Made by a program: the position numbers and the translations under genes
Shown: positions 45,283 to 47,756 of the stretch, piece by piece
How the letters are laid out: the number at the start of each line of letters is the position of its first letter
Numbering within the stretch: position 1 is the first letter of the stretch
NCBI RefSeq assembly: GCF_018905915.1
Contig: NZ_CP064782.1
Coordinates: forward strand, 1,240,001 to 1,304,000
DNA: 64,000 nt
Direction of reading: 5' to 3'
Source of the DNA: Azospira inquinata
GTDB lineage: Bacteria; Pseudomonadota; Gammaproteobacteria; Burkholderiales; Rhodocyclaceae
Notes under the pieces: model-generated
Databases searched by the model: none
Told to the model about the DNA's origin: nothing
The model's input: only the letters and a program-made list of their open reading frames with translations

Positions 45283-45999
45283 CTAAGCCAGCCCCAGGCG
45301 TTCCGCCACCGCCGCCGTGCGGCCCCGGCTGATGGGTACCCGACTGGCGGGGAAGGTGGCCATCACCACCCACTGCCGATCCCCTTCCTTTTCCAGACGG
45401 GCCGCATAGGCCATGGCGATGATGTGGCTGCGATGCACCCGGAGAAAGGCCCCTTCCGCCAGACGCCGTTCCAGGGCCGCCAGGCTCAGGTGGCAGAGAA
45501 AGGAATCCCGGGCCGTAAAAATCCGGGCGTAATGGCCTTCCGCCTGGAGATGAACCGCTTCCTCCAAATCCAGCAGCACCGTGGCGCCCCCCTGCAGCAC
45601 AGGCAGCTTGGCCAGGGGACGGAGCCCGCTCACCGGGGCGGGCAGGGCCTGGCGCCCAGCCCGGGGCAAATCGTAGAAAAAGAGGCAAAAGCCTTCCAGA
45701 CCCTGACGATCGCTTAGCGCCGTGAGTTTGATGAGCAGGGGCCGGTCCGGCACATTGATCATCATGGCCAGGGGCGAAGCATCCCCGGGGGCCTGGGCGG
45801 CGGCTTCCTGCAACAGCCAGGCGATTTTTCGCCGGGCGGGCTCCGGGTGAAATTCGGTTACCGGACGGCCGATCCAGTCCCGGTGGTAATGGCCCAGCAC
45901 CTGTACCGCCAGGGGATTGGCGGAGCGTATGCGGCCCTGGCGATCCAGGATCACCACCCCGGGCTCCGCTTTCTGTAGCTGATATTCCAAACTTTCCAT
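45283..45999 (-). CDS. rcoM: PAS-LytTR transcriptional regulator, RcoM-like heme/CO sensor
   Basis: A 238-residue one-component regulator. Residues ~5-110 are a PAS domain (PGVVILDRQGRIRSANPLAV). Residues ~135-238 form a LytTR DNA-binding domain (LLDLEEAVHLQAEGHYARIF, FLRVHRSHIIAM, VPISRGRTAAVAERL). RcoM proteins bind heme through a PAS His and Met and activate targets on binding CO. Both positions are recognisable: H51 in TEFHPEPARRK and M79 in LAMMINVPDRP. The Cys that ligates ferric heme in studied RcoM has no counterpart between them. The gene is divergent from cowN, a natural target. A non-heme PAS-LytTR relative remains possible. Confidence 0.78.
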   Translation of the reverse strand: MESLEYQLQKAEPGVVILDRQGRIRSANPLAVQVLGHYHRDWIGRPVTEFHPEPARRKIAWLLQEAAAQAPGDASPLAMMINVPDRPLLIKLTALSDRQGLEGFCLFFYDLPRAGRQALPAPVSGLRPLAKLPVLQGGATVLLDLEEAVHLQAEGHYARIFTARDSFLCHLSLAALERRLAEGAFLRVHRSHIIAMAYAARLEKEGDRQWVVMATFPASRVPISRGRTAAVAERLGLA

Positions 46000-46026
46000 G
46001 GTTTCACTTTCCCGACCCGGCCGCCG

Positions 46027-46074
46027 TTCACGCCGCTCCGCCGCCGTTGGTGCAGACCGTCGGCTATTGGTGCA
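46027..46074. promoter_or_regulatory. Three direct repeats, candidate RcoM operator
   Basis: TTCACG (46027-46032), TTGGTGCA (46047-46054) and TTGGTGCA (46067-46074) are spaced exactly 20 bases apart, start to start. They all fit TTnnnG. CO-bound RcoM is known to bind sets of three direct repeats about two helical turns apart. The third ends eight bases before the putative cowN -35. Confidence 0.6.
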
Positions 46075-46081
46075 TTGTCCC

Positions 46082-46109
46082 TTGTTCCCCGGCGCCTCCC
46101 CGGCACAAT
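46082..46109 (+). promoter_or_regulatory. Putative cowN promoter
   Basis: TTGTTC (46082-46087), 16-base spacer, CACAAT (46104-46109): weak, as expected for an activated promoter directly downstream of the repeats. Confidence 0.45.
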
Positions 46110-46140
46110 AGAGCCCATCTTACCTTTGGGAACCGGGACC

Positions 46141-46428
46141 ATGGCCAAAATCGACCGCTACGAATCCTTCCAGGGCATCGACTGCTTCCGCAATGCCAGC
46201 GCCGTCATCGAGCGGGTGCTGCTCCATGTGAACGGCCCGGAAAAGACCAATATCTACTGGGAGTACTTCGTCAAAAAAATCCCGGAAGGCTATTACTCCC
46301 AGACTCCCACGGAAGACCTGCTCTATCTGGTCTGCTCCAACACCTACTACATTGAGGAGCTGTTCGAGAAATTCGAGGACCAGGAAGGCTTAAGCCGCCT
46401 GCAGAAATGTGAGCTGGAATGCTGCTGA
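46141..46428 (+). CDS. cowN: CowN, nitrogenase CO-protection protein
   Basis: A 95-residue cytoplasmic acidic protein. Family features: DRYESFQGIDCFRNA near the start, KTNIYWEYFVKKIP, YYIEELFEKFEDQEGL, and the ending ELECC. CowN lets nitrogenase-dependent growth continue in the presence of CO, reportedly by acting directly on nitrogenase. Its presence implies that this organism fixes nitrogen, though no nif gene is in the window. The ATG at 46141 follows GGGA; an upstream in-frame start would add unrelated residues. It is monocistronic, with a strong terminator behind and an RcoM-like gene divergent. Confidence 0.88.
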   Translation: MAKIDRYESFQGIDCFRNASAVIERVLLHVNGPEKTNIYWEYFVKKIPEGYYSQTPTEDLLYLVCSNTYYIEELFEKFEDQEGLSRLQKCELECC

Positions 46429-46446
46429 CCCAGTCCTTCCTCCCAT

Positions 46447-46474
46447 AAAAAAGCCGGCAGTAAGCCGGCTTTTT
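46447..46474. terminator. Bidirectional terminator between cowN and pyrC'
   Basis: GCCGGC/GCCGGC stem (46453-46458 with 46464-46469) extended by A run and T run (AAAAAA ... TTTTT), loop AGTAA. Serves both converging genes. Confidence 0.88.
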
Positions 46475-46505
46475 GGTTCTGGGAATCCGGCCACAAGGGC
46501 CTGGA

Positions 46506-47756
46506 TCAGGCCTGATACACCACCTGCCCCCCCACCAGGGTGCTGCGCACCCGACCCCGGAGCTCCCGGCCCAGGAAGGGGGTGTTGCGGCCCCGACTGC
46601 GCAGGGTGTCGGCCCCCACGGTCCATACCGCTTCCGGATCGAAGACGGTCACATCCGCCACCGCCCCCACGCTCAGATTGCCCGCATGGAGCCCGGCTAC
46701 CGCCGCCGCGTCGCTGGTAATGCGGGCCAGGGCCTGGGGCAGGGCCACCCCGGCATCCTTGGCCCAGGCCAGGGTCAGGGGCAGGAGCAGTTCCAGGCCG
46801 ATGGCACCGGGTTCCGCTTCGTCAAAGGGCAGGAGCTTGTCTTCCGCACTACGGGGATAGTGGTCGGAACAGATGGCCTGGATGGTGCCGTCGGCCACGG
46901 CCTGAACCAGGGCTTCCCGGTCCCCCTGGGTCCGCAGGGGCGGATCAAAGCGGGCCAGGGGATCGAAGTAGCCGATATCCTCTTCGGTGAGGTGGAGGTG
47001 ATGCACATCCACGTCGCAGGTCACGGGCAGGCCCTGGGCCCGGGCGGCGGCCACCAGGCGCACCCCGGCGGCAGAGGAAAGGCGCATCAGGTGGAGGCGT
47101 ACTCCGGTGGTCCGGGCCAGTTCCACCAGAGTGGCCACGGCCACGGTCTCGGCGGCCACGGGAATGCCAGCCAGCCCCAGGCGGGCCGACACTTCCCCGT
47201 CGTGGGCCACCCCATCCCGGGACAGGGTGTAGTCCTCGGGTTGGAGCCACACCGCGTAACCGTAGGTGGCGGCGTATTGCATGGCCCGCAGCAGGGCCTG
47301 GAAGTCGGTCACCGGAGAGGAGGCCTGGGACATGGCGATACAACCGGCACCGGTGAGGCCGGCCATGGCCGCCAGACTCTGACCTTCCAGCCCCTGGGTC
47401 AGGGCCCCCAGGGGACGCACCCGGGCTTGGCCCTGGGCCTTGGACAGGCGCACCAGGCGTTCCACTAGGCCGGGTTCATCCAGTACCGGCTTGGTGTCCG
47501 GGGGGCAGACCAGGGTGGTGACACCGCCGGCTACGGCGGCCTGCAATTCGCTGTCCAGATTGGGCAAGCGGGCGGAAAGATCCACCAGTCCGGGGCAAAC
47601 CACCGCTCCGGCGGCGTCTAGTTCCCGGTCCGCCGTGAAACCGACGGGGGCCGCGCCCACGGCGGCCACCCGGCCATCGGCCAGATAGAGGTTGTGCTGG
47701 CCGTCCACCCCGTTGGCGGGATCAATAAGGCGGCCGTTTTTGATAAGAATGTTCAT
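46506..47756 (-). CDS. pyrC: Dihydroorotase-like protein PyrC', probably non-catalytic (PyrX type)
   Basis: A 416-residue amidohydrolase-fold protein directly after pyrB. The usual metal-binding D-x-H-x-H after PGLVD is replaced: here PGLVDLSARLP has Ser61 and Arg63 at the His positions. The later region CSDHYPRSAEDK keeps an Asp-His. Loss of the HxH pair marks the inactive type I dihydroorotase homologue that, in Pseudomonas, assembles with aspartate carbamoyltransferase and stabilises it. A functional dihydroorotase must then be encoded elsewhere. Start is five bases upstream of the end of pyrB, on the same strand. Confidence 0.88.
   Translation of the reverse strand: MNILIKNGRLIDPANGVDGQHNLYLADGRVAAVGAAPVGFTADRELDAAGAVVCPGLVDLSARLPNLDSELQAAVAGGVTTLVCPPDTKPVLDEPGLVERLVRLSKAQGQARVRPLGALTQGLEGQSLAAMAGLTGAGCIAMSQASSPVTDFQALLRAMQYAATYGYAVWLQPEDYTLSRDGVAHDGEVSARLGLAGIPVAAETVAVATLVELARTTGVRLHLMRLSSAAGVRLVAAARAQGLPVTCDVDVHHLHLTEEDIGYFDPLARFDPPLRTQGDREALVQAVADGTIQAICSDHYPRSAEDKLLPFDEAEPGAIGLELLLPLTLAWAKDAGVALPQALARITSDAAAVAGLHAGNLSVGAVADVTVFDPEAVWTVGADTLRSRGRNTPFLGRELRGRVRSTLVGGQVVYQA

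Follow-up and report, generated by a model that had tools for sequence, protein, structure and literature searches.

In Azospira inquinata, the gene of an RcoM-type PAS-LytTR protein lies divergent from cowN, and the space between them carries three direct 8-bp repeats in a fixed register to a weak -35-like hexamer of cowN. We consider it likely, with a rough probability of 0.8, that an RcoM-type one-component CO switch controls cowN at this locus. The locus lies in the window, i.e. the whole stretch of 64,000 nt (64 kb) that was analyzed, where an ORF and profile search found the minus-strand PAS-LytTR gene and cowN at the positions given by a previous sequence-only reading. That reading had also placed sensor, site and effector within 1.2 kb, and the coordinates agree (Table 1). 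Its observation as a whole is confirmed, and its interpretation as a CO-sensing guard for nitrogenase is supported.

Locus organization

The start codons of rcoM and cowN are separated by a 141-nt gap that contains all three boxes. The relative position of the two genes is the same in all three Azospira genomes, and the gene order yggS-proC-yggT-DUF167-rcoM/cowN-pyrC-pyrB-pyrR-ruvX-yqgE (names other than rcoM and cowN being presumed from the sequences) is shared with Azospira sp. I13 and A. oryzae DSM 21223. Between the convergent cowN and pyrC, the region 46440-46480 folds with -18.6 kcal/mol (z -4.2); this hairpin, which the terminator scan did not call, is likely a terminator in both directions.

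Table 1 Features of the rcoM-cowN locus, with window positions, and nitrogenase genes located elsewhere in the genome
Feature	Position	Strand	Remarks
rcoM-type regulator, 238 aa	45283..45999	-	PAS at about residues 7-112, LytTR 140-235; H51/M79 in RcoM heme-ligand columns
Operator box 1 TTCACGCC (predicted)	46027..46034	+	Azospira relatives have TTCGTGCA
Operator box 2 TTGGTGCA (predicted)	46047..46054	+	Azospira relatives have TTCATGCA
Operator box 3 TTGGTGCA (predicted)	46067..46074	+	Azospira relatives have TTGGTGCA and TTGATGCA
Weak -35-like TTGTTC of cowN	46082..46087	+	TTGTCC in the relatives, equally far from box 3; below promoter-scan threshold
Possible -10-like CACAAT, 16 nt after the -35-like hexamer	46104..46109	+	By eye; below scan threshold
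cowN, 95 aa	46141..46428	+	PF20543 and NF033689 over cut-offs
Hairpin flanked by A/T, between cowN and the convergent pyrC	46447..46474	.	Folding energy; no call by the terminator scan
NifH-type and AnfG/VnfG genes, outside the window	G000:C1 72113-72442, 83683-84498, 282212-283021, 284773-285102, 1334422-1335237		

The regulator has the architecture and heme-ligand residues of RcoM

The product of 45283-45999(-) is a single protein with an N-terminal PAS domain (PAS_4, 1e-9) and a C-terminal LytTR domain (1.4e-15). The cowN product matches a curated Pfam and an equivalog model, PF20543 (111.9 bits, cut-off 27) and NF033689 (88.6 bits, cut-off 48), respectively; both proteins thus came through the profile search that had been proposed as a check. 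The regulator aligns over its full length with proteins named RcoM, and not just with LytTR proteins in general, so that the check for a grouping with non-heme LytTR proteins did not refute the reading. With P0066, which bears the NCBI name of P. xenovorans RcoM-2, the alignment runs end to end at 37% identity, and the orthologue of Azospira sp. I13 already carries the NCBI name CO-responsive transcriptional regulator RcoM.

By counting, the residues of interest in P0066 are H74, C94 and M104, and we take His74 and Cys94 to be heme-ligand positions of RcoM. H51 and M79 of the regulator, which had been singled out as RcoM heme-ligand positions, are present and fall in the H74 and M104 columns of P. 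xenovorans RcoM-2. Across the 64 rows of an alignment, H51 does not vary and the conservation of M79 is at least 90%. An excerpt of PMC9670170 describes the reduced RcoM heme as ligated by His and Met, with Met replaced by CO, and Met104 is named in the title of a reference within it. As an RcoM, the regulator would bind heme and, with high affinity, CO.

Met104 is not universal: in its column, P0019 and P0023 have Leu, L037 and L049 have Leu with an adjacent Met, and L051 has Phe. P0019, P0023 (from Pararhodospirillum oryzae, with a source name that starts "CO-respon") and L051 are RcoM-like proteins that keep the His, and CO sensing in these three would require another sixth ligand or none.

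In the alignment with P. xenovorans RcoM, the ferric ligand Cys94 has no counterpart in the window regulator. It is also missing from the Azospira sp. I13 protein, the cowN-linked rows and most cooS-linked rows, and was treated as variable among the examined rows rather than as an RcoM-defining trait. The predicted structure of the regulator has a mean pLDDT of 89.9. In a Foldseek search with this model, the LytTR domain ranked first and the PAS matches comprised heme PAS domains (Aer2, FixL, EcDOS) among many non-heme ones, a result that is consistent with an RcoM identity but not decisive.

A regulator that acts on cowN through the triplet but senses redox, O2 or NO through a heme PAS, and not CO, could likewise show Aer2, FixL and EcDOS among its model-based matches and a ligand chemistry that departs from P. 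xenovorans RcoM at Cys94. We regard such a sensor as unlikely: the His and Met fall in the same columns as in CO-sensing RcoM, the closest relatives of the regulator elsewhere adjoin CO-oxidation genes, and CowN itself serves under CO, according to a section of PMC8047169.

Three probable operator boxes stand in a fixed register to cowN

The boxes were found exactly as the sequence-only reading described them, starting at 46027, 46047 and 46067 with a period of exactly 20. The pattern TTNNNGC repeated three times at this period occurs once in the window, both strands considered, and in none of 100 dinucleotide shuffles; the scored triplet in the 220 nt upstream of cowN was matched by 0 of 500 shuffles. 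The repeats had been said to end eight bases before a weak cowN -35, and TTGTTC indeed begins at 46082, eight positions on from the final letter of box 3, with 7 nt between. The consensus promoter scan of 45950-46520 reported no promoter, and the hexamer is thus weak.

The view that RcoM operators are triplets of direct repeats agrees with the RcoM-1 site in PMC11347149, where an activator uses a triplet of imperfect direct repeats of 8 bp, TTCNNGCA, which are separated by 12-13 bp and precede the -35 box. For CoxC, that paper gives a triplet of TTNNNGCN. The window boxes match the looser TTNNNGCN form and are a poor match to the strict TTCNNGCA, as box 1 lacks the final A and boxes 2 and 3 have G for C; boxes 1 and 2 of the two Azospira relatives match the stricter form. 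The triplet expected ahead of an RcoM target gene, with 8-bp direct repeats at a spacing of 20-21 nt, is therefore present, in the window in the looser form.

Conservation of the 20-bp repeats before cowN had been proposed as a check, and they were found in both other Azospira genomes. A scored triplet upstream of cowN is present in all three (3/3), and in each case none of 500 shuffles equalled it. Compared with the window, the two relatives share 19 and 18 of 24 letters in the boxes and 9 and 8 of 24 in the spacers, while the relatives share with each other 23 of 24 letters in the boxes and 22 of 24 in the spacers. The gap between box 3 and the -35-like hexamer is 7 nt in all three genomes; on the other side, 27 nt in the window and 15 nt in each relative separate box 1 from the start of rcoM. 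Retention of the triplet in 3/3 Azospira while the spacers diverged, together with the 0/100 and 0/500 shuffle counts, makes a chance arrangement of repeats next to unrelated genes very improbable, despite the imperfect box 1 of the window and the low shuffle counts of some loci without RcoM (L040, L020 and L048, see below).

Boxes 1 and 2 of the two relatives have the near-palindromic sequence TTCNTGCANGAA, which can be read on either strand (L028 1365-1400, L029 1377-1412), and the boxes score toward rcoM too (0/300 shuffles), whereas the window boxes are not palindromic and score toward cowN only. These near-palindromes, and the nearness of box 1 to the rcoM start in all three genomes, would also suit an autoregulatory site of rcoM, with cowN driven by NifA or another nitrogen regulator; in G. 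diazotrophicus, cowN depends on NifA too, as reported in a section of PMC8047169. The constant distance between the boxes and the -35-like hexamer of cowN in 3/3 Azospira and the cowN-only direction of the window boxes argue against this arrangement. Moreover, no TGT-N10-ACA was found within 300 nt upstream of cowN, none of 25 two-mismatch sigma-54-like matches lies near cowN, and boxes score toward the target at the cox- and cooS-linked loci described below. We hold it to be even less likely than a redox, O2 or NO sensor. Control of cowN by RcoM through the triplet is thus the reading that we retain.

Box triplets at other RcoM and cowN loci

As a cognate control, the regions of cox- and cooS-linked RcoM loci were picked by hand. 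Triplets oriented toward the target were found in 5/5 cox-linked and 4/4 cooS-linked loci, each with at most 2 of 300 dinucleotide shuffles as good; in the opposite direction, the same nine loci gave at least 16 of 300. A strict one-way rule for the boxes was nevertheless rejected: the direction toward the target wins in 9/9 cox/cooS loci, but the two Azospira relatives score both ways and RcoM locus L059 is reversed. At L059, whose target is not known, a triplet is seen in one direction, opposite to the assumed forward one (10/300, and 2/500 in another scan); L060, also an RcoM locus with a target that is not known, shows no triplet.

Among the RcoM-cowN loci of the order of genome G361, 6/9 have a triplet at no more than 12 of 500 shuffles and three (L038, L044, L051) have no significant one. 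None of 19 CooA-linked cowN promoters carries a triplet, all giving at least 219 of 500 shuffles. The 21 other cowN loci have no PAS-LytTR gene in view: eight belong to the family and nine to the G361 order, and the MHYT locus L042 together with L033, L034 and L036 completes the set. Their lowest shuffle counts are 0 (L040), 9 (L020) and 28 (L048) of 500. The L040 boxes (TTCATGCA, TTCGTGCG and TTCACGCG) stand at period 20 from about 231 nt before the cowN match, with no RcoM within 1.5 kb upstream. The L040 contig ends soon downstream of cowN and may thereby hide a regulator on that side.

Probable CO sensors linked to cowN and their distribution

In the family sample, 33/199 genomes carry cowN, in 36 copies, and 30 loci were read. 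RcoM is found in three of them, all three Azospira and no others; 19 have a CooA-type CRP-family neighbour, each with a [TC]GTC-N8-GAC[AG] site, and eight have neither type within 1.5 kb. The CooA identity of these neighbours rests on the cooA-cowN arrangement and site published in PMC8047169 and on Pfam domains for two of them. Cases with neither neighbour include L020, L024, L025, L026, L027 and L031, whose CowN proteins form one clade (100/100); in L020 and L025, the upstream protein is NifX/NafY-like by eye, so cowN may there belong to a nif operon.

RcoM occurs in 10/199 family genomes, beside cowN in three, beside coxM/coxS in three, beside cooF/cooS in two and beside neither in two. The G361 order, by inference alphaproteobacterial, has cowN in 19/150 genomes: nine have RcoM upstream on the same strand, one has an MHYT-LytTR gene (L042) and nine have neither in view. 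In the phylum sample, cowN was found in 5/398 genomes, the A. inquinata genome included.

Upstream of the window cowN, no CooA-type TGTC-N8-GACA palindrome was found. The best CooA-like protein of the same genome is 30% identical (E 4.9e-10), and values of about 30% in all three Azospira genomes mean that no CooA orthologue is evident; neither component of a CooA-cowN module, CooA gene or palindrome, was thus found at the window cowN. RcoM in Azospira therefore seems to stand in for the CooA-type sensor common among its relatives. CooS was not found in any of the three Azospira genomes, and a candidate aerobic CODH of the A. inquinata genome was dismissed, the single PF02738 match in that genome being a xanthine dehydrogenase.

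At L042, the MHYT-LytTR protein (278-1366, +) is encoded directly upstream of cowN (at 1501). MHYT-LytTR is the architecture of the CO-responsive repressor CoxC according to an excerpt of PMC11347149, in which cowN is not mentioned, and a third type of CO sensor may have been recruited to cowN. Thirteen RcoM-model matches (L083-L095) are restricted to the LytTR part; coxM/coxS are in the locus for 12 of them, and the four that were domain-scanned are all MHYT-LytTR.

Ancestry of the pair and cysteine pattern

In the first CowN tree, Azospira CowN groups with that of the G361 order (100/98). Without three long rows (L033, L034, L036), the wider grouping is weak (76/88) and is not rejected by the AU test (p 0.242). 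A tree constrained to keep Azospira CowN with the rest of the family is worse by 22 log units (p-AU 0.046, 95 columns). We did not accept transfer of cowN as proven, given a p-AU of 0.046 on 95 columns and a group named after the first tree had been seen. In the RcoM tree without L049 and L051, Azospira and the cowN-linked RcoM of the G361 order may form one clade (76/55), which is neither established nor rejected; L042, which is not a PAS protein, was kept outside both RcoM trees. The first trees suggested that rcoM and cowN of Azospira have separate origins; we dropped this reading, as the Azospira and the other cowN-linked RcoM may be one clade once the long rows are taken out. Import of a ready rcoM-cowN pair into Azospira is plausible, not proven.

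Across 22 RcoM rows with a known neighbour, a Cys-Pro motif lies between the His and the Met in 6/6 cox-linked rows (the cox link of P0066 being taken from the literature), and a Cys is found there in 0/12 cowN-linked rows. It is also missing from three of four cooS-linked rows; the fourth, L079, carries a Cys that is out of register. In the strict C94 column, Cys appears in only 3/6 cox rows because of alignment gaps; L061 and L062 are in register in another alignment. We rejected this pattern as proof, as the tree offers a single independent pair; with one independent contrast, it is a lead only. A tentative idea, which we rate as doubtful, is that RcoM branches are matched to their targets with matched heme pockets, that the cowN type has no redox gate, and that the sensor was exchanged in Azospira, possibly by import of the ready pair.

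Discussion

The most likely course of events at the locus would be as follows. Heme would be held in the PAS domain by H51 and M79; CO would displace M79, whereupon the LytTR domains would bind the three boxes, which are spaced by two helical turns. Bound just upstream of the weak cowN promoter, they would help RNA polymerase and thereby activate cowN, and CowN would then keep nitrogenase turning over in CO. The start codon of rcoM is 27 nt away from box 1, so that occupancy of the boxes may dampen rcoM as well.

cowN is present as a sole copy in the A. inquinata genome, which contains nifH genes, and CowN presumably protects nitrogenase in this organism. Outside the window, the genome has three strong NifH-type and two AnfG/VnfG genes and probably carries Mo, V and Fe-only nitrogenases, enzymes that differ in CO sensitivity; each of the two other Azospira genomes has a single strong NifH and lacks AnfG/VnfG. 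No other CO gene was found in the A. inquinata genome by CooS, MoCoBD_1 and CooA searches, so a readout would be clean. Among open-licence papers, we found nothing on Azospira, nitrogenase and carbon monoxide together.

The pairing of RcoM with cowN is already known from R. rubrum, in which rcoM adjoins cowN as in Azospira (Kerby and Roberts 2011, as cited in an excerpt of PMC4257681), and the Azospira locus adds a new case. The nine RcoM-cowN loci of the G361 order have rcoM upstream on the same strand, whereas rcoM and cowN are divergent in Azospira. With P. xenovorans RcoM-1/RcoM-2 and their cox operator, the Azospira system shares the PAS-LytTR architecture, the His/Met columns and a triplet of 8-bp repeats with 12-13 bp gaps before a -35; unlike them, its target is cowN and not cox, it has no Cys94, and its PAS is shorter, an insert of about eight residues being missing. 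The CooA-cowN module, known from G. diazotrophicus (in the part of PMC8047169 concerned) and seen in 19/30 family loci, likewise places a CO-responsive regulator beside cowN, but uses a CRP-family protein and a TGTC-N8-GACA palindrome in place of PAS-LytTR and direct repeats. Another LytTR CO sensor with a three-box operator is CoxC of Afipia carboxidovorans (PMC11347149); it differs from the Azospira regulator in its membrane MHYT sensor, in being a repressor and in its boxes that overlap the -35.

If the tentative scheme of target-matched branches were true, the cowN-guarding RcoM, like most cooS-linked RcoM, would do without the Cys ferric ligand of the cox-linked RcoM, and Azospira would be a natural nitrogenase CO guard with a swapped sensor, using RcoM where its relatives use CooA. 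The locus raises the question of why relatives guard nitrogenase with different CO sensors, CooA, RcoM and perhaps MHYT-LytTR, and of whether RcoM of the cowN type can function although they lack the cysteine ligand and would lack the redox gate that the studied proteins have.
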